A DNA stretch of 64,000 nucleotides, taken from assembly GCA_010692425.1 (NCBI GenBank), contig JAAHHJ010000017.1:62001-126000 (forward strand), read 5' to 3'. A program made the position numbers and the translations under genes. Source of the stretch: Symploca sp. SIO3C6 (lineage in GTDB: Bacteria > Cyanobacteriota > Cyanobacteriia > Cyanobacteriales > Coleofasciculaceae). The notes beneath the pieces are model-generated. The model ran no database searches and was not told the origin of the DNA. It saw only the letters and a program-made list of their open reading frames with translations. Below, one piece after another: positions 35,636 through 53,590 of the stretch (the first letter of the stretch is position 1; each line of letters starts with the position of its first letter).

Positions 35636-37735
35636 TTATTTTCTGGGTTTACCATTGCCATTACCATTGCCGTTACCGTTACCGTTGCTGCGACCAGTAG
35701 TTTTCAGGACTCCTGTAGCTAGCTTACCGGGGACTTCCTGAAGATGATTATACTCCCATTTGAAGAAACCAGTACCGAGAGTAAGCGATCGCAACTCCAC
35801 AATGAAGTCATGCATCTCGGCTTGAGGGAGATAGCCACAGACACAATCCCAGCCTTTCCAATCGGAAATCGCTTCATAGCCGAGAATTTGCCCGCGACGC
35901 CCAGTTATTAGTTGGAGGACTTTAGAGGTAAATTCTATCGGTGCCTTGACTTCAATCGCCATAATTGGCTCAAGAAGCATTGGTTGGCAATTAGGCATGC
36001 CTTGCGTCATTGCTAAGCGTGCTGCTTGCTTAAAAGCCTGTTCGGAGCTATCAACGGAGTGGTAAGAGCCATTAGTCAGTGTTACTGCTACATCCACCAC
36101 TGGAAAACCTAGAGGTCCTTGTGATAAATACTCTCGAACACCAGTTTCTACACCAGGAATATATTGCTTCGGTACTACACCACCGACAATAGTGTCCGAG
36201 AAATCGAAGCCTTCACCACGATGCTGGGGTTTAATCTCAAGGTAAACATCACCAAATTGACCATGACCACCACTTTGATGCTTGTAGCGCCCATGAGAAG
36301 AGGTGGTTTTACGGATAGTTTCCTTATAGGGAACTTGTGGCCAACCTGTAGTCATTGGTAGGTTATACTTACGCCGCAGTCGGTCTAGAGCCACCTTGAG
36401 GTGAATGTCTCCTTGCCCCCAGAGGATAATTTCATTTGTATCGCCATGTTGCTCCCAGGCTAGAGAAGGGTCTTCTTCCAGCATCTTAGTTAAAGCCCCA
36501 GAGAGCTTGACTTCGTCTTTGCGCTTCTCTGGGGCAATTGCTAGGGCATAAACTGGCTTAATTGGTTCAGCTTGCGATAATTTCACGCCTGAATTATCAC
36601 CGCTAGCAACTAAGGTAGCCCCAGTTTGGATACCTTCTAAGCGTCCTAGGGCAATAATTTCACCGGCTGATGCCTTTGATATTGACTGAGATTGTTGACC
36701 CTGTAAGCGATACAAGCCACTGGGACGAACCTGATTGAGAATTATACCCTCGGTAAGTTGACCTTGCCAAAGGCGCACTAGTGAGAGTCTTCCACCTTGG
36801 GGAGTGTAATAGGTTTTAAGTACCTGTGCCACTACTTTCTCAGAATTACCATCAATTCCCCGTCGCTTAGCAGTAGTTTCAGGTGCTGGTGCTTCCCGCA
36901 AGAGGGCATCAATTAGATGCCTGACGCCATAATCTCGCTCAGCTACGCCCATAAACACTGGCACAATTAGGTCACAGCCCAATTCCATTTTCAGGTCTTG
37001 AAGAATTTCTTCCTGAGGCGGTTCAATTTCTTCTAATAGTTCTTCTAGGAGATGGTCATCAAAATCTGCTAAGGTTTCGAGTAATTGCGCCCTTGCTTCC
37101 TGCTCCTGCTCCTTCAAAGACTCAGGCAATGGTACCAGATCAGCTGGGGCATCAGGGTGGTACTGATAGGCTTGTTCACTAACTAAATCAATAAATCCTG
37201 TGACTTTGTCCCCTGTGCCAATGGGGTACTGGTGCAGCACTAAAGGACGGGCTGAGACTGATTTAATCGCTGCTAATAATTCTCGATAAGAGCTGCCCCA
37301 AGCACCACCATTACAGCTAAATCGGTCTACTTTGTTAATAAATAATAGGTGCGGAATTTCCCAATCATCGAGAAACTTAAATAGGGGAGACAGCGTTAGG
37401 ACGCGCTCAATTACTGGTTCACAAACAACGATCGCGGCATCGACGCCAATTAAAGCATTGTAGGTTTCTTGGGCAAACTCAATTGAGCCTGGGCAATCTA
37501 GAAAGGTGAAGTCAATACCCCGATATTGGGTAGTAGCGACAGTTACCTCCACGCTCATGTGGCGCTCGCGTGCTTCGGCTGCACTATCACCTACTGTATT
37601 GCCGTCTTTAATATTGCCTTTGCGAGAAATCGCACCAGTCACAGACAATAAGCTCTCCAACAAAGTGGTTTTGCCACTTAAATAGGGACCGACAATTGCC
37701 ACATTACGGGTAGCAGAAACGACTTTTTCGTTCAT
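35636..37735 (-). CDS. EF-G-like translation GTPase
   Basis: 699 residues with five EF-G domains: the GTPase with G1 GPYLSGKTT, G3 DCPG, G4 NKVD; domain II (VLKTYYTPQGGRLSLVRLW); domain IV (SHGRYKHQSGGHGQFGDVYL); domain V (EPIMAIEVKAPIEFTSKVLQ). It belongs to the second EF-G-like branch found in cyanobacteria and plastid-related lineages rather than the str-operon EF-G, because G1 has LSGKTT and the effector loop differs. The C terminus ends in an Asn-Gly repeat (SNGNGNGNGNGNGKPRK) from hexanucleotide DNA. The start ATG overlaps the stop of the isrB gene by four bases, so its original 5' region has been replaced by a mobile element. Confidence 0.9.
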   Translation of the reverse strand: MNEKVVSATRNVAIVGPYLSGKTTLLESLLSVTGAISRKGNIKDGNTVGDSAAEARERHMSVEVTVATTQYRGIDFTFLDCPGSIEFAQETYNALIGVDAAIVVCEPVIERVLTLSPLFKFLDDWEIPHLLFINKVDRFSCNGGAWGSSYRELLAAIKSVSARPLVLHQYPIGTGDKVTGFIDLVSEQAYQYHPDAPADLVPLPESLKEQEQEARAQLLETLADFDDHLLEELLEEIEPPQEEILQDLKMELGCDLIVPVFMGVAERDYGVRHLIDALLREAPAPETTAKRRGIDGNSEKVVAQVLKTYYTPQGGRLSLVRLWQGQLTEGIILNQVRPSGLYRLQGQQSQSISKASAGEIIALGRLEGIQTGATLVASGDNSGVKLSQAEPIKPVYALAIAPEKRKDEVKLSGALTKMLEEDPSLAWEQHGDTNEIILWGQGDIHLKVALDRLRRKYNLPMTTGWPQVPYKETIRKTTSSHGRYKHQSGGHGQFGDVYLEIKPQHRGEGFDFSDTIVGGVVPKQYIPGVETGVREYLSQGPLGFPVVDVAVTLTNGSYHSVDSSEQAFKQAARLAMTQGMPNCQPMLLEPIMAIEVKAPIEFTSKVLQLITGRRGQILGYEAISDWKGWDCVCGYLPQAEMHDFIVELRSLTLGTGFFKWEYNHLQEVPGKLATGVLKTTGRSNGNGNGNGNGNGKPRK

Positions 37736-38865
37736 CTTTCTTCGCGGCGGTCGCCCCTCGCTTTTAGCGACGGGAGGAAAGCCGCGCCTCCGACTAATGG
37801 TTTACAAATTAATCCTGTGCTACGTCTTAGTAGCTTGGTTTTCTTGACAGAAAACTGCCCTAATCGCTTCGAGTTAAAATCTGATACCGAAACTTGTGTT
37901 TTGGTGTCTCCCGATACCCAGCCCCGATATTTAACCCCTTTGCGCTCTGTCTCGACGAAGTCTCCCTTTCTAAGACCGTGGCAAGTTACTGTCGCGCCAT
38001 ATTTGCGACGCTTTCCACCCTTGGCGAACACCATTAGATGTAGCTGTCTACGGCTAACGGGAGGTCGCTTAACGACTAAAAACGGAGCTGGGGTAACTTG
38101 ACAAATACCTTGCCAGTAACCGTATTTACCTCTCAACTCTTTCCATCTCAAAAAGTAATGAGCGGCTAGAGCGATACCATCAACAGCATGAGTGGCAGGT
38201 GTTTGATTAGCCTTGTTGGATTTGTCTTTAGTCAAACCCAAGTATTGCCTGAGGTTTGAAGTTTCCCAGCCATACCTGGTAGTAACTGGCGCTAGTTGTG
38301 GCAACCACTCCTCAATCATGACTTTTTGACCTACCATTGCTGGACTAAAGCCTTTGTTCCCCTTAGCCTTAATGTATTCGTACACAATACCGCTAACTGG
38401 AAACAGCTCGGTTAATTCTTTAACGACACGGTACTCAAGTTGTCTATTGGAACGAATACTAGGAGGGAGCTTTCTAGCCTTGCGATTGTTAAAGCGTACT
38501 TGTCTATGTGAACGTTGGTTGTAGGGTAACTTGCGATTAATTCGTCTGCCTCTACGCCCACGCCGCATCATTCTACGGTCTGACATTCGCTTTGTAACAC
38601 TCTTAAAAGGTAACTCAAGATGGGCAGTAAAAAGGGTTGCTTTGACAGATTGAACACCTATCCCAGTAAATAGTTTTCCAGGGTCAATACCAACAGCTAT
38701 AGGTTGGGTTTTAGTATCAGCATCTATTGTTAATTGGATAGCAAACTGTTGCAGGTCATTCCGGTAGATTCGTGCCTTACCTTCCTTTAGCCATCGCCTT
38801 GCACGACTAGGCTTGGTCGGCATTAAAGGCTTGCCGAATTTACTGATAACGGGTACACGATACAT
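37732..38865 (-). CDS. isrB: IsrB-type RNA-guided nickase (RuvC only, no HNH)
   Basis: 377 residues of the IscB/IsrB ancestor family of Cas9. The N-terminal PLMP/RRXRR domain is GKPLMPTKPSRARRWLKEGK (11-30). RuvC-I is GIDPGKLFTGIG with D61; the Arg-rich bridge helix is RRMMRRGRRGRRINRK (97-112); RuvC-II is IVYEYIKAKG with E163; RuvC-III is ATHAVDGIALAA with H226 and D229. Only about 60 residues lie between RuvC-II and III, leaving no room for an HNH domain, which defines IsrB and predicts nicking of the non-target strand. All catalytic residues are present, so it may be active. The last about 20 codons overlap the element's end hairpin. Confidence 0.9.
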   Translation of the reverse strand: MYRVPVISKFGKPLMPTKPSRARRWLKEGKARIYRNDLQQFAIQLTIDADTKTQPIAVGIDPGKLFTGIGVQSVKATLFTAHLELPFKSVTKRMSDRRMMRRGRRGRRINRKLPYNQRSHRQVRFNNRKARKLPPSIRSNRQLEYRVVKELTELFPVSGIVYEYIKAKGNKGFSPAMVGQKVMIEEWLPQLAPVTTRYGWETSNLRQYLGLTKDKSNKANQTPATHAVDGIALAAHYFLRWKELRGKYGYWQGICQVTPAPFLVVKRPPVSRRQLHLMVFAKGGKRRKYGATVTCHGLRKGDFVETERKGVKYRGWVSGDTKTQVSVSDFNSKRLGQFSVKKTKLLRRSTGLICKPLVGGAAFLPSLKARGDRREER

Positions 38866-40659: not shown

Positions 40660-41265
40660 TTAATGCTTCAAAACAGCGTGCGATGATTGACGGCTGGTAT
40701 CCCAGAGCAAAATGCTGTGAAGACAACCAACAGCGATCGCCCATACCGCATTTCCCGCAAAAACGCCCCACAAAATTGGCAGGGTAAATCCTTCAACACC
40801 TCCCAAGGCAAATCCCGCCAGCAAAATGACACACTCATACAGAACATATCCTCCCATTAAAGCGACAGCCAACCATAGATAATGACTTCCCATAGGAGAA
40901 CGACCGAAGCTAGGTTTGATAGATGTTAGGAGTGTGACCAACAGCGTCCCTAATCCTAGTACCAATCCCCAGGTAAAGGTGTTGAGAGTCTGAGGATAGC
41001 TGTGAATGGTAAACCCCAAAAGTTGGTTGACAAACCACATAGTCATCATAGTTGCAATAGCACGGCGATGGGGAAGAGTCGCTCCAGCGATCACACCAAA
41101 ACCCACCAGAGGAACTGTGCAGGTATAAACAACATTACTGAGACTGCCTAGGGCGGTAAGCAAGAGGAACCAGAATTTACTCTGGGACACAGAACGGTAA
41201 GCTACCTCCCAACGAGCTGATAGCTTAAGTAACGGTGAATGGCTAGCAATTTTGCTGTAATGCAT
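40660..41265 (-). CDS. Unknown multi-helix membrane protein in the B12-riboswitch operon
   Basis: 201 residues with about five or six membrane helices (roughly 32-50, 54-68, 72-90, 98-118, 132-155, 162-185). The segment LLAGFALGGVEGFTLPILWG is glycine-rich and could line a pore. I do not recognise a named family. It is the last gene of a three-gene operon (26-base gap) behind a cobalamin riboswitch and a TonB receptor, so a role in corrinoid or cobalt movement across the inner membrane is a reasonable guess, not shown by motifs. Confidence 0.8.
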   Translation of the reverse strand: MHYSKIASHSPLLKLSARWEVAYRSVSQSKFWFLLLTALGSLSNVVYTCTVPLVGFGVIAGATLPHRRAIATMMTMWFVNQLLGFTIHSYPQTLNTFTWGLVLGLGTLLVTLLTSIKPSFGRSPMGSHYLWLAVALMGGYVLYECVILLAGFALGGVEGFTLPILWGVFAGNAVWAIAVGCLHSILLWDTSRQSSHAVLKH

Positions 41266-41291
41266 AGAGAAAACTCCTTTTCTAGAAAAAC

Positions 41292-42188
41292 TTAACTTTT
41301 TGGAGGATAGAGGTGGGCTGTTAGTTTGCGACCATTAACCAAATGTTCCTGTACAATTTGCCGTGCCACCTCTGGTTTAACTCGCGTGTACCAGGTTTGT
41401 TGGCGCAGTTCGGGAGAGCGATCATCCCCTGAGTAGTACACCACCGGTCCTAACTTGCAAACCTCCAGACAACCAGAGCTAATTACATTTACTTCTAGTC
41501 CCGCTTCTGCCACCGCTTGCTGCATTGCCTCACAGACAGGCTGCCAGTTACGCGAAGGATAGCAGCGACTAGAACGACAGACGGATAAATAGGGGCGCTT
41601 GAGGGGATTAGTGGTGTAAGGAATCGGACGGATTCCTTGAACGTAGATTTGTCGTAGTTCTTCGTAAAGTGCCAGCTTCTCCAGACAGGGCTTATTTTCC
41701 GGCAGTAGGTCTTCTTCCTCACCCAGAAACGGATTGGGCAAAAACAGATTCATCATCTTTTCCCCCGTCCCATTCCAGAACTGAATCCCCCAACTGCGTG
41801 CTTTACCATGTTCATTGAGGCTGCGATATAAGGCGGCGCGACCAACTAGACGCTGTTGGCGTAGATTGGGTGGGGTTTTCTGATGTGGACCACCCAGGTT
41901 TTCTTCTACGCACAAATGCAGATGCCAGGATTCGGTAGCAACAGTGAGATACCCATCGTAAACCACGCAAATTTTAGGGGGTTGGCTAAACTCCAACTCC
42001 AGAACGCTACCCTCAACCACATGCCCTAGCTGCACTTCCTGCCAACGTTCTTGAAACAGAGTGTACAATATCGGACCAAGTACATCGATCTGAGGGGAAA
42101 AATCTTCGTATTCAATCGTACCGCTTCTGGAGGCAGGTTCTGTATCCCGGCAGTTGAGCGGCGTGACCCAACGATTAAATGCACTCAT
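41292..42188 (-). CDS. (2Fe-2S) thioredoxin-like ferredoxin domain protein
   Basis: 298 residues. The first about 195 residues form an unassigned alpha/beta domain with YDGYLTVATESWHLHLCVEE and GPHQKTPPNLRQQRLVGRAA. The C-terminal about 85 residues are a thioredoxin-like [2Fe-2S] ferredoxin: SVCRSSRCYPSRNW gives C-x4-C and SSGCLEVCKLGPVVYY gives C-x3-C, the expected four ligands. Two-part proteins of this kind occur beside cobalamin-regulated receptors in cyanobacteria, and a redox role in cobalamin or cobalt handling is likely but unproven. It is 12 bases behind the TonB receptor gene. Confidence 0.85.
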   Translation of the reverse strand: MSAFNRWVTPLNCRDTEPASRSGTIEYEDFSPQIDVLGPILYTLFQERWQEVQLGHVVEGSVLELEFSQPPKICVVYDGYLTVATESWHLHLCVEENLGGPHQKTPPNLRQQRLVGRAALYRSLNEHGKARSWGIQFWNGTGEKMMNLFLPNPFLGEEEDLLPENKPCLEKLALYEELRQIYVQGIRPIPYTTNPLKRPYLSVCRSSRCYPSRNWQPVCEAMQQAVAEAGLEVNVISSGCLEVCKLGPVVYYSGDDRSPELRQQTWYTRVKPEVARQIVQEHLVNGRKLTAHLYPPKS

Positions 42189-42200
42189 CAGCTACTCTCC

Positions 42201-44312
42201 TTAAAATTCTGAACTCAGACCAATGCGAAAACTGCTACCTACCCCTGGAAAACCAGGAAATTCTTCATACTGTTGATCAAAAATATTGTCCCAACTGGCA
42301 TTGAATACCAGATTACTACTTACAGGCAATCGCAGTTTCAAATCCAAGGTAGTGTATCCCGGCAGAGATTCTGTATTGGTATTGTTAGTAAAAAACTCAC
42401 TAAGATGACGCAGCAGTAATCCAACATAGAGTCCTCGGTTGGTTTCATATGCTAGTCCTAAATTCAGACTATCAGCTCCACGGAAACTCAATTCATTACT
42501 TTCGAGACCCGGATTGCTATCTTCCAAAATCTCAGGGTCATTCAAAGTATAGTTAGCGAAGGCATAGAGATTGTTGGCTAGTTGGGCATTTAGCTCGGCC
42601 TCAATCCCCGTTGTCCGCACTTTGCCAATATTTGTGTAGGTACTAGGAGAGCCAAACTCAAAATTTATTAAATCGGAGATGGTATTGACGAAGAATGTTA
42701 AACGCAGTAAACCAAGATCTCCCAATTGCTGGTCAACACCAATATCAAAACTATTGCCTCGTTCAGGTTGCAAATCGGGATTGCCGACTACGTTAAAAGC
42801 CGCCAATCCTTCCTGGTTAACTATTTGAGGAGCTCTAAAACTTTTAGCATAGTTAGTTCTGAGGGTAGTAGATTTTCCTAAAGCCAGACGTACTCCCAAA
42901 CTAGGAGAAGTGAATGAACCATTTTCTAGGCTATTAAAATCTTGGCGTAGTCCCAAATTGAAGCTAAAACTAGGAGATAAATCAATATCATAAAGAGCAA
43001 AAATTGCTCCTTGGCTAATATTGCCGTCATAGTTCTCGGTGTTAGTTTCAGTGGCGAAACTGAAAGTATTATTTTCAGCATTAATATTACGATAATCAAA
43101 GCCATAGGTCAGGCTTTGGTTGGCAGCTAATTGCCAGTTATGTTGCACCTGTAGTCCTAGGTTGGTTCGCTCAATATCATCTTTTGTTCCAAAGGTATTG
43201 GGGTCAGGGTTGGTGAAATTGTAATCGAGAAAATCGGCGTAAATTCTACTGGTTAGCAGAGAATCATCTGCCTGTCCCAATTTAGCTTGCCAGCTTAGAT
43301 CTAGTAGGACTTCTTCCGTGTACTGCCTCGCCTCAGGGGTAAGGTTATTAAATTCTCCGGCACTGCCATCAATAGGAATGGGAACACCCCCAGCCACACC
43401 GAAATCTTTAGTGAGATATAAAGCATTGAAAATGAGACGGTTGCGATCGCCTAAGTTCGTCTCTAGTTTCAAATTGAGGTTGTTGTACAGAACATCGGCG
43501 TTTTCACGCTCATCTTCCAAATCAATTCTGTCAATCTCGAAAGGGAAGTCGTTCTCCGACTCCGTGCGATTGTAACTCAAAAACCAACCGATATCCCCAG
43601 TGCGACCATTGGTCTGAACCACCTGTTGATTGAAACCAAAACTACCCAAACCGACAGTAGGTTTGGCTTCAATCTCTTGTTGTTTAGGCACAACACGGGT
43701 AATGATGTTAATCACTCCACCAACAGCATCAGAACCATAGAGGGTTGAACCACCACCGGGAACTACCTCAATCTGTTCTACTACGTCGGTGGTAAATTCC
43801 GAGAGATCGAAGCCACCAAAAAAGCCAACATCATTAATCGGTCGTCCATCTAACAAAATTAAGGTCTGAGCGGTATTACCGCCACGGATGAATTGAGAAC
43901 TAGACGCTCCCAACTGCCCCCCTGCTGTACCATCACTGAGAATTCCCGGTAAGAATTTGAGGGCTTCTTGTACTGTACTGGCACCTTGAGCTTCAATTTG
44001 TTCCCGGTTGATTATATAAGCTGGACGGCTAGAGTCTCTGAGGGTGCCTTCCTGACGAAATGGAGTGTAGAGCGGTTGAGTTAATAGCTCCTCGGTTACC
44101 GTAATTTCAATTTCTTCTGCTTGTTCCTCAACTAATGGTTCTTTTTCCGCTTCGGTTTCTGAGTTAGTTGTCGGTTCCGGAGAGGATTGTTGAGCGTAAA
44201 GTGGTTCTTGAGCCTTAACTTCACAGCCCCCCATAAACATCATTGTTAACCCACTTAAACTCAGGCAGATACAGTTAGTTAACCAAGCAATAACGGCAAG
44301 GTTAGTATACAT
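42201..44312 (-). CDS. TonB-dependent outer-membrane receptor (BtuB-like)
   Basis: 703 residues. A signal peptide (MYTNLAVIAWLTNCICLSLS) leads to an acidic linker and the TonB box EIEITVTEEL. The plug domain runs from SRPAYIINREQIEAQGASTV to GSDAVGGVINIITRV; a 22-strand barrel with alternating hydrophobic residues ends in GLSSEF with the terminal aromatic. The cobalamin riboswitch upstream identifies the substrate as vitamin B12 or a precursor, making BtuB the best match. It is the first gene of a three-gene operon. Siderophore receptors look alike, but would not be under a B12 switch. Confidence 0.9.
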   Translation of the reverse strand: MYTNLAVIAWLTNCICLSLSGLTMMFMGGCEVKAQEPLYAQQSSPEPTTNSETEAEKEPLVEEQAEEIEITVTEELLTQPLYTPFRQEGTLRDSSRPAYIINREQIEAQGASTVQEALKFLPGILSDGTAGGQLGASSSQFIRGGNTAQTLILLDGRPINDVGFFGGFDLSEFTTDVVEQIEVVPGGGSTLYGSDAVGGVINIITRVVPKQQEIEAKPTVGLGSFGFNQQVVQTNGRTGDIGWFLSYNRTESENDFPFEIDRIDLEDERENADVLYNNLNLKLETNLGDRNRLIFNALYLTKDFGVAGGVPIPIDGSAGEFNNLTPEARQYTEEVLLDLSWQAKLGQADDSLLTSRIYADFLDYNFTNPDPNTFGTKDDIERTNLGLQVQHNWQLAANQSLTYGFDYRNINAENNTFSFATETNTENYDGNISQGAIFALYDIDLSPSFSFNLGLRQDFNSLENGSFTSPSLGVRLALGKSTTLRTNYAKSFRAPQIVNQEGLAAFNVVGNPDLQPERGNSFDIGVDQQLGDLGLLRLTFFVNTISDLINFEFGSPSTYTNIGKVRTTGIEAELNAQLANNLYAFANYTLNDPEILEDSNPGLESNELSFRGADSLNLGLAYETNRGLYVGLLLRHLSEFFTNNTNTESLPGYTTLDLKLRLPVSSNLVFNASWDNIFDQQYEEFPGFPGVGSSFRIGLSSEF

Positions 44313-44689
44313 TAAGGTTATTTTCCTTCTGGTTAATGGTTATGACCAGTAATTTCCAGTGATTGATTGCCAAAACTGTTACAACTCCCCTAGCATCTGA
44401 GCAAAATAGCGAAATTAGTTGCACTCAAACTTGCTCTAAGTACAGAGAATTATGCTTAGTTGTCACAAATTTTGTTGGGAAGTAGTTTGATACCCAGGAT
44501 GAAATCTTGCAAGGACTATGTACCTGATACAACCACTGATCAATAAACTTATAGTGGTTTGTCAGAGTGATCTACTTAGTAAGCCCTGCTATCTGATTGA
44601 GTTGCAAAGCTTTCTTTCTACCAACAGCTTCACAATCCGAGAATGATAAACTCTTAAGCTTTTTAACTAGCCAGTTAGTCATTACCTGT

Positions 44690-44850
44690 ACCTCGCAGAT
44701 AAATATGGATAAACTTCATCGGCGGGCATTCTGACTCAGAGACATTAAGCTCATCACAGCTGCGGGACAGCGCCGGATTTACACCGAACTTTCCCCCTTT
44801 CCTCCAACGGCTGCTCCTCGTTGGAACCGATAATCTTGCTTATGCCAGGA
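44690..44850 (-). promoter_or_regulatory. Cobalamin riboswitch
   Basis: The minus strand carries the B12-box core GCCGGATTTACACCG read as CGGTGTAAATCCGGCGCTGT, followed by CCCGCAGCTGTGATGAGC and GTCAGAATGCCCGCCGATGA. This series is the conserved core of AdoCbl/Cbl riboswitches. It lies about 380 bases before the TonB receptor start and should switch the operon off when cobalamin is plentiful. The long spacer would hold the expression platform; I see no clear terminator stem in it. Confidence 0.95.
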
Positions 44851-51634: not shown

Positions 51635-53590
51635 TTGCTGTTCAATGATTTCCAACCCCTAGCTGCGATCGCTACTACCCCTGTAGCTGCTCAAAAACTA
51701 CAATCGATGTGTCAAACTGCTGGGGCGACACTTTGGGTGCCAGAGTCTCTCAATCACCTCAAACTTAAACAGATTAAGTTCTATAGTGGCTCACTTAAAG
51801 ACCATATTGCCTCGCTGTGGTTCCAAAATCGCGCTTTGGTTTTCTGCTTGGCAACTGGAGCAGTGGTGCGCTTAATTGCTCCTCTGCTAGAGGATAAATC
51901 CCGTGATCCAGCAATAGTGGTGGTAGAGCAAGGAGGACGTTTTGTAATAAGTTTGTGCAGCTCTCATCAAAGGGGTGCTAACCAGTTGGCACAGTTAGTT
52001 GCTCATCAACTGGGAGCAGTACCAATCTTAACAGGAGCTGCTGCTGATTTAGGGATACCAGGTATTGATGTATTAGGTATTCCCTTCGGTTGGCTTCGTG
52101 GAGAGGGGAATTGGACAGGTGTTAGTGCAGCGGCAGCACGTGGTGAGTCTATAGAGGTGATTCAGGAAGCTGGTTCGATTTTGTGGCAAAGTCATCTTAA
52201 AGAAGGACATCCCTTTGAGTTTGGCGCATCTGGAGACTCTAAAGCTAGAATTTGGATTAGTTCCCAAGTTAAATCTCCTCAAGCATCTCTAGAAATAGAA
52301 AAGGGGAAAGGGGAAGGGGAAGGGGTAAAGGTTTTTAAAAATAAAAATAGCATTCAAAATCCATTGCTCATCCCAGAGGTGCAGTGGCATCCAAGGGTAT
52401 TATGGGTTGGAATTGGATGCGAGCGTGGAACTTCAAAAGAACTTTTAGTAACAGCAATTGAGCAGACTTGTCAGCGCTATCAGTTAGCAACAGCAGCGAT
52501 CGCAGCAATTGCTACTATTGATCTCAAAGCTGATGAAGTGGGTTTGGTGGAATTGTGCGCAGAGCATAATTGGCCGTTACGAACTTTTCCAGCTGAAGTA
52601 CTCGGCGGTGTAAGTGTACCTAATCCTTCTCGAATTGTGAAGAAAGAAGTAGGAACCCCCAGCGTAGCCGAGGCGGCGGCTCTACTAGCAGCGTCATCTC
52701 AAACTCTTTTGGTATCTAAACAAATTTTCCGCTCTCAAAGCCTAAATTTAGATATTGCCAAGCTAGAGGGAGATAACAACATCCACAATTACCAAGGAGC
52801 AGTAACGGTAGCGATCGCTCAATCTGAATTAGAATACACTGGTCGTAATGGGCAATTGTTCTTAGTTGGCACTGGTCCTGGTCAACTTGACCAAATGACC
52901 CCGGCAGCCCAAACTGCTGTTACCAAAGCCGATGCTGTAATTGGTTATTCCCTATATATAGATTTAATCACAGCTTTGAGGCGTCCAGGGCAAATTATTG
53001 AGGCCCTACCAATTACCAAGGAGCGCCAACGGGCGCAAAGAGCAATTGAATTAGCTGAGTGGGGGTTATCTGTGGCAGTTATTTCCTCCGGTGATTGTGG
53101 TATCTATGGCATGGCAGGGTTAGTCTTTGAAGAGCTCCGCAATCAGGGATGGGATGGCAAAAAGCCAGAGATACAGTTGTTTCCTGGTATCAGCGCTCTG
53201 CAAGCTGCTGCTTCTCGCGTTGGTGCTCCGTTAATGCACGATTTCTGTGCCATTAGTTTGAGTGATCTGTTAACGCCCTGGAAGGTGATAGAAAAACGTC
53301 TAGAAGCAGCAGCGCAGGCGGATTTTGTCACAGCATTATATAATCCGCAATCACGTAAACGAACTCAACAAATTGCGATCGCTCAAGATATATTTCTTAA
53401 ATATCGTCATCCTCATACTCCTGTGGCAATTGTGCGCTCTGCCTATCGAGAGGATGAGCAAGTAACTCTGACAACTCTCGACAAATTTCTAGATCTACCC
53501 ATTGATATGCTCTCAACTGTGCTCATTGGCAATCAGAGTACTGATATCTATTCTAATTGGATGATTACCCCGCGGGGATACTTAGGATAA
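51635..53590 (+). CDS. cobJ: CbiG/CobJ fusion: cobalamin biosynthesis CbiG and precorrin-3B C17-methyltransferase
   Basis: 651 residues. About 1-190 is the CbiG N-terminal and central region (LVFCLATGAVVRLIAPLLED, SSHQRGANQLAQLVAHQLGA); about 250-400 the CbiG C domain (WVGIGCERGTSKELLVTAIE); 408-651 the SAM-dependent methyltransferase CobJ/CbiH (LFLVGTGPGQLDQMTPAAQT, VAVISSGDCGIYGMAGLVFE, FCAISLSDLLTPW). It acts in corrin-ring contraction. The fusion is usual in cyanobacteria. A heptamer-encoded KGKGEGEG stretch is inserted near residue 225. The start is TTG in the track; no ATG gives the conserved N terminus, so TTG is accepted with reserve. Confidence 0.92.
   Translation: MLFNDFQPLAAIATTPVAAQKLQSMCQTAGATLWVPESLNHLKLKQIKFYSGSLKDHIASLWFQNRALVFCLATGAVVRLIAPLLEDKSRDPAIVVVEQGGRFVISLCSSHQRGANQLAQLVAHQLGAVPILTGAAADLGIPGIDVLGIPFGWLRGEGNWTGVSAAAARGESIEVIQEAGSILWQSHLKEGHPFEFGASGDSKARIWISSQVKSPQASLEIEKGKGEGEGVKVFKNKNSIQNPLLIPEVQWHPRVLWVGIGCERGTSKELLVTAIEQTCQRYQLATAAIAAIATIDLKADEVGLVELCAEHNWPLRTFPAEVLGGVSVPNPSRIVKKEVGTPSVAEAAALLAASSQTLLVSKQIFRSQSLNLDIAKLEGDNNIHNYQGAVTVAIAQSELEYTGRNGQLFLVGTGPGQLDQMTPAAQTAVTKADAVIGYSLYIDLITALRRPGQIIEALPITKERQRAQRAIELAEWGLSVAVISSGDCGIYGMAGLVFEELRNQGWDGKKPEIQLFPGISALQAAASRVGAPLMHDFCAISLSDLLTPWKVIEKRLEAAAQADFVTALYNPQSRKRTQQIAIAQDIFLKYRHPHTPVAIVRSAYREDEQVTLTTLDKFLDLPIDMLSTVLIGNQSTDIYSNWMITPRGYLG
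52300..52330 (+). repeat. In-frame GGGGAAA/GGGGAAG array inside the CbiG/CobJ gene
   Basis: AAAGGGGAAAGGGGAAGGGG then AAGGGG is read in frame as EKGKGEGEG, between the CbiG central and C domains. Confidence 0.75.

Follow-up and report, generated by a model that had tools for sequence, protein, structure and literature searches.

A candidate solo corrinoid importer encoded in cobalamin-riboswitch operons of cyanobacteria and alphaproteobacteria

A cobalamin-riboswitch operon of the cyanobacterium Symploca sp. SIO3C6 ends in a gene for a small membrane protein (TM), which is likely to be a solo inner-membrane corrinoid importer, similar to BtuM in its working but with no detectable homology to it. 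The operon lies in the stretch of DNA that we analysed, 64,000 nt of contig JAAHHJ010000017.1 (the window). We propose that it would serve for corrinoid uptake under repression by B12: its BtuB-like receptor would carry corrinoids across the outer membrane, TM alone would take them across the inner membrane in place of BtuFCD, as proposed for Thiobacillus BtuM, and a DUF7676/2Fe-2S protein would act on the incoming corrinoid in the cytoplasm, with either transporter. It is an open question how many bacteria take up B12 through the inner membrane by means other than BtuCD. The question becomes directly testable with a family that occupies the very slot of BtuFCD and that is, in several genomes with BtuB, the sole candidate seen.

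Results

A riboswitch operon without btuFCD

The operon is encoded on the minus strand, in the order riboswitch, TonB receptor, DUF7676/Fe-S gene, TM. The cobalamin riboswitch aptamer (RF00174; positions 44704–44846) scored 63.4 bits in cmscan, against a gathering threshold of 31.5 (E = 2.5e-13), and a leader of ~390 nt separates it from the first start codon of the operon. The first gene (42201–44312) encodes a BtuB-like TonB-dependent receptor of 703 aa, with Plug and TonB_dep_Rec_b-barrel domains over their Pfam cut-offs. The second (41292–42188) encodes a 298 aa protein that combines DUF7676 (PF24724; 222.6 bits against 27) with a C-terminal thioredoxin-like 2Fe-2S domain. The third (40660–41265) encodes TM, the candidate corrinoid importer, a protein of 201 aa with six membrane helices and a Cys50-x-x-Pro motif in loop L1 of its AlphaFold2 model. 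The intergenic gaps are 12 and 26 bases. This succession of riboswitch, TonB receptor, 2Fe-2S protein and membrane protein had been proposed in a sequence-only reading of the window, and is confirmed by cmscan, Pfam and the coordinates. The same reading held that the usual BtuCDF genes were missing, which is correct for the operon itself: neither the list of open reading frames nor Pfam revealed a btuF, btuC or btuD gene within it.

The best NCBIfam model for the receptor is TIGR01779 (TonB-B12; E = 1.1e-52). Since the score of 179.5 bits is far below the equivalog cut-off of 599.7 bits, we call the receptor BtuB-like only. It is ~49–58% identical to the receptors of riboswitch-btuFCD operons. 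A role in cobalamin transport has been demonstrated for BtuB2 of Anabaena, a different protein from the receptor in the window (PMC10878165).

Elsewhere in the window, 7 kb from the operon, positions 51635–53590 (plus strand) encode what by eye is a CbiG-CobJ type fusion for synthesis of the corrin ring; this suggests that corrinoids are also made by the organism itself. Positions 37732–38865 (minus strand) encode an RRXRR-domain protein (PF14239; E = 8.5e-47), of a kind known from IscB-like mobile-element proteins.

TM genes are linked to cobalamin riboswitches in two phyla

We found TM homologues in 5 of 292 genomes of cyanobacteria and in 17 of 385 of alphaproteobacteria; another 27 loci, mostly from cyanobacteria, with a few from Pseudomonadota, came from scanning species genomes. 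The family does not occur mainly outside B12-related contexts: a cobalamin riboswitch lies upstream on the same strand in 36 of the 50 TM loci (22 of 30 cyanobacterial, 14 of 20 alphaproteobacterial), at a median distance of 2.35 kb and at most 5.7 kb. On the DNA examined, no upstream riboswitch was seen in the other 14, some of which are short contigs that lack upstream DNA. These 14 loci are what would be expected if TM were a chance neighbour unrelated to B12. However, the linkage spans two phyla, and the 7.5 Mb Symploca genome has only three RF00174 matches, two of which lead to TM copies; we give a chance association almost no credence.

The second TM of the Symploca genome, which has His rather than Cys in L1 (see below), sits behind its own cobalamin riboswitch (contig C1; locus L015, 9427–13235). 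It is followed by genes for a methyltransferase that has a membrane segment at its N-terminus and recurs in several such operons, and for an FAD monooxygenase. In the cyanobacterial genome G129, which has an intact TM elsewhere, a TM remnant with internal stops lies directly behind a cobalamin riboswitch (contig C6; locus L016, 9192–9639). Two genes encoding ~690 aa each lie directly downstream of TM in loci L013 (10357–14516) and L039 (6714–10909); the one that was scanned (L013, 10357–12420) encodes an ArsA-type ATPase.

TM replaces BtuFCD in a cyanobacterial operon

DUF7676 is present in 18 of the 292 cyanobacterial genomes. Fourteen of these have the order receptor, DUF7676/Fe-S gene, BtuF-type gene; in 13 of the 14 operons, a FecCD permease comes after the BtuF-type gene, mostly together with an ABC ATPase, and a riboswitch lies upstream in 11 of the 14, within the stretch examined. 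In the remaining four genomes (G000, G056, G129 and G177), TM occupies the slot of BtuF. TM is absent from all 14 genomes with the BtuF-type operon, and the two never share the slot. Random assignment, with relatedness ignored, would give 4/4 versus 0/14 with a probability of 1 in 3060. The operon of Anabaena sp. PCC 7120 (alr4027-btuB2-alr4030-btuF-btuC-btuD), in which BtuB2 and BtuD matter experimentally for cobalamin uptake, has a ferredoxin-like protein in the place of the Fe-S gene (PMC10878165); judging from its position and the reported ferredoxin similarity, Alr4030 would be the DUF7676/Fe-S protein.

We also considered BtuCDF genes elsewhere in the genome. G129 has no FecCD permease over cut-off. 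The Symploca genome has four strong FecCD permeases outside the operon, so that the objection anticipated in the sequence-only reading, BtuCDF encoded elsewhere and sufficient, is borne out in part. Their neighbours hint at putative substrates: one lies beside a siderophore-type receptor (contig C228), two are in tandem (C46) and one is accompanied by an IsdE-like binding protein (C235), which suggests siderophore or heme transport. As candidates for a hidden BtuC, none groups with the operon type: all 13 operon BtuC proteins stand apart from the four in a phylogenetic tree (100/100). However, this tree joins several long branches and puts E. coli BtuC on the opposite side of the split. Hence, the tree shows no orthologue of the operon BtuC in this genome, while transport of B12 by any of the four permeases is still conceivable.

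Alphaproteobacteria with TM as the only candidate seen

In 11 alphaproteobacterial loci, a BtuB-like receptor lies between the riboswitch and TM; in three, the riboswitch directly precedes TM. Six genomes with the arrangement riboswitch-BtuB-TM (G313, G376, G430, G440, G533 and G699) have no clear BtuC-type permease: FecCD matches are absent or weak (23–29 bits against a cut-off of 26.5), the weak ones probably being zinc-type permeases, and EcfT was found in none of the six. TM is the only inner-membrane candidate seen in these genomes, which may be incomplete, in a search that covered FecCD and EcfT. Most alphaproteobacterial TM hosts lack EcfT, whereas all cyanobacterial hosts searched have it.

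These genomes bear on the idea that TM helps another permease by processing or binding corrinoids at the membrane, for example as a decyanase. The other FecCD permeases of the Symploca genome would provide such a partner, and the conserved Cys or His of TM recalls the decyanation chemistry of BtuM (PMC6072759). However, no partner of the FecCD or EcfT type is evident in the six alphaproteobacteria, and TM and BtuFCD are mutually exclusive in the slot; we regard this role as very unlikely.

One locus (L043) has the order riboswitch, BtuB, TonB-like gene, CobT, CobC-like gene, CobS, TM, where CobT and CobS exceed their curated cut-offs and CobC does not. The three Cob genes directly upstream could mean that TM, like CblT, takes up a precursor of the lower ligand (dimethylbenzimidazole or alpha-ribazole). 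We consider this extremely unlikely for the family, since at most loci TM is accompanied by BtuB or MetE and adjoined by no lower-ligand genes, and since its interchange with BtuFCD speaks for the whole corrinoid. In three further loci (L113, L115 and L118), a gene for a BtuF-like binding protein follows TM. By eye, BtuF-like proteins next to or near TM have no evident signal peptide (L113, 8201–8998; L115, 9057–9854; L118, 9297–10067; L110, 5089–5880), and a cytoplasmic corrinoid-binding role is possible for them.

The sequence-only reading had suggested that the last gene of the operon encodes either a corrinoid permease or a cobalt channel. Comparative genomics supports the permease well, given the riboswitch linkage (36/50), the occupation of the BtuFCD slot, the co-occurrence with BtuB, CobT, CobC, CobS and BtuF-like proteins, and the genomes with no other candidate. 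Cobalt is still a rival substrate, and is weighed below with the His-type loci.

TM has a conserved Cys or His in a loop that may face the periplasm

Searches of Pfam and NCBIfam with TM gave no family above cut-off; a match to BC10 was at chance level. PDB sequence searches with TM and with profiles of 5 and 28 members matched nothing at E 10. There is thus no sequence link between TM and a solved structure, and therefore none was seen to BtuM, assuming that the chains searched include the BtuM entry. Kinship with CbiM/NikM was rejected (hhalign probability 1.7 with a CbiM profile of three sequences; no Pfam hit). A comparison of alphaproteobacterial TM with plasmids gave no match, a scan for promoters and terminators added no information, and we found no description of the family in the literature.

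The AlphaFold2 model of TM (pLDDT 90.6, pTM 0.85) has six helices (residues 30–46, 53–63, 66–86, 94–114, 124–154 and 162–200) after an amphipathic N-terminal helix. Positive charges at residues 64–68 and 115–123 would place those loops inside, and L1 (47–52) and L3 (87–93) would therefore be periplasmic; in this orientation, Cys50 in L1 and the conserved Tyr90-Pro91 in L3 would face the periplasm. The best-scoring Foldseek matches of the model are ECF S-components (PanT probability 0.66, TM-score 0.46–0.49, best E = 1.6), with PanT and FolT next by probability. Because every E-value is >1, we treat the ECF S-component fold as a lead only.

P52, Q81, G84 and Y90 do not vary across the 50 TM sequences, and N80 and W99 are almost invariant. 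L1 contains either a Cys (CxxP; 31 sequences) or a His (HxP; 19 sequences), such that one or the other is present in all 50. The His group forms one side of a single branch in a maximum-likelihood tree (98/93), so the Cys/His exchange needs only one change. Among these sequences, the Cys type occurs in both phyla and the His type only in cyanobacteria; Cys is probably the older state.

His-type loci and the case for a metal substrate

Cys-clade TM genes mostly occur with a BtuB-like receptor and, in cyanobacteria, also with DUF7676. The neighbours of His-clade TM genes include MetE and NrdAB, both B12-independent enzymes, as well as CobW, DUF1636 and a methyltransferase, usually with no TonB receptor; L021, L023 and L026 have the DUF7676/Fe-S gene and lack the receptor. 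Such a neighbour set is expected under shortage of B12 or of cobalt, and leaves room for a metal substrate. Hence, in the His clade and perhaps in the whole family, TM might transport cobalt or another metal ion and be induced at low B12 for the cell's own B12 synthesis.

Several loci are consistent with a metal transporter, beginning with the His-clade riboswitch-TM loci that have MetE, CobW, DUF1636 or NrdAB and mostly no receptor. Single-pass proteins that recall nickel/cobalt accessory subunits are encoded upstream of TM in L034 (with a His-containing stretch) and in L040 (YtkA-like), and the third riboswitch of the Symploca genome precedes a HupE gene. On a Gloeocapsopsis dulcis plasmid (L091, 1983–14453), a receptor-FeS-TM unit with no riboswitch lies after thrS and before folE and hisI; DUF1636, two GTP-binding proteins and cysS are further neighbours, and a Zur-box-like sequence lies upstream of thrS. 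However, the Cys clade mostly follows BtuB and exchanges with BtuFCD, TM ends the CobT-CobC-CobS salvage operon of L043, and L028 (148–3882) encodes, on one strand, a riboswitch, CbiM, a 95-aa ORF, CbiQ, CbiO and then TM. TM follows a CbiM-CbiQ-CbiO cobalt transporter there, and has no profile similarity to CbiM. On balance, we consider cobalt, or another metal ion, an improbable substrate, and favour corrinoid import by TM.

The Gloeocapsopsis gene set resembles zinc-starvation clusters. Together with the Zur-box-like sequence, these neighbours suggest that the receptor-FeS-TM unit, a B12-type uptake unit, may also come under zinc control there. Should the choice between Cys and His reflect specificity for corrinoid or for metal, or else two ways of holding cobalt, the family would be a natural experiment. 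Some genes are found repeatedly in those B12-riboswitch operons of cyanobacteria that contain MetE (L021, 862–4014; L023, 3033–4552; L030, 9087–9560; L034, 6635–10324): two families with no Pfam match (one of ~150 aa, the other of ~315 aa and with a tail of PEP-CTERM-like type) and a folate-related protein that is CADD/TenA-like.

The DUF7676/Fe-S protein accompanies either transporter

DUF7676 spans residues 18–182 of the 298-aa protein, and the thioredoxin-like 2Fe-2S domain residues ~198–294. In phmmer searches of the PDB, the latter matches the N-termini of HydB/NiFe hydrogenase subunit B (E = 1.2e-6) and also the Aquifex 2Fe-2S ferredoxin, which Foldseek matches as well (1m2a; E = 4.6e-6). 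C204-x4-C209 and C240-x3-C244 are conserved in every homologue that has the domain. With the four ligand cysteines and the fold present, we assign it to the thioredoxin-like 2Fe-2S ferredoxins; its PF01257 score is below the Pfam cut-off (11.7 against 24.8). To call this a novel two-part 2Fe-2S protein, as the sequence-only reading did, was an overstatement: the DUF7676 family is already described in Pfam, and one homologue carries the RefSeq label '(Fe-S)-binding protein'. The DUF7676 part of the AlphaFold model has a mean pLDDT of 64.6, too uncertain for function to be read from it.

The suggestion that the Fe-S protein reduces Co(III) corrinoids on entry found no direct support. By eye, the protein has no evident signal peptide and is therefore probably cytoplasmic, and it occurs equally with BtuFCD. 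Moreover, DUF7676 is also present in two riboswitch-BtuB-TM loci of alphaproteobacteria, where the protein of Methylosinus (L041; 190 aa) lacks the Fe-S domain and that of L120 has only 202 aa. With either importer, the protein probably acts on corrinoid in the cytoplasm, and cobalt reduction is one possibility among several for its role. A more specific scheme, which we put forward tentatively and think is rather less likely to be right than wrong, is that of an uncharacterised solo-importer family with no sequence kinship to BtuM, in which the Cys of L1 (His in a derived cyanobacterial clade) would hold the corrin cobalt and the DUF7676/Fe-S partner would reduce or strip the corrinoid in the cytoplasm.

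Comparison with known systems

The Fe-S domain shares CX4C ... CX3C and the fold with thioredoxin-like 2Fe-2S ferredoxins and the NuoE-HoxE domain; unlike these, it is fused to DUF7676, and its absence in Methylosinus indicates that it is dispensable. TM resembles the ECF S-components that are its best-scoring fold matches (PanT, 4rfs_S and 6zg3_C; FolT, 7nnt_C) in having six helices with a short second one, but the E-values are >1, the TM-scores <0.5, and no sequence similarity was found. BtuN, a SEED/RAST name used in Rhodocyclus (PMC8954225) and Methylobacterium (PMC7038796), denotes a predicted B12 transporter that clusters with BtuB in Rhodocyclus (PMC8954225). By name and gene context, BtuN may be a designation that the proteobacterial branch of TM already bears, which would limit the novelty of the family.

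BtuM of Thiobacillus denitrificans is a small (~22 kDa), BtuB-linked inner-membrane protein of six helices that is thought to act alone, with a conserved Cys80 in loop L3 proposed to reach the corrin cobalt (PMC6072759). TM is likewise a small six-helix protein linked to BtuB, has a conserved Cys (or His), and in most alphaproteobacterial hosts occurs without EcfT. By contrast, its Cys50 is in L1 rather than L3, 19 of the 50 sequences have His instead, and the cyanobacterial hosts have EcfT. We do not class TM with BtuM, either by sequence (PDB profile search) or by the invariant Cys in L3. The closest match in gene order is the BtuFCD operon of Anabaena PCC 7120, where riboswitch, BtuB-type receptor and ferredoxin-like protein come in the same order as in the window, and where btuF, btuC and btuD stand in place of the single TM gene.
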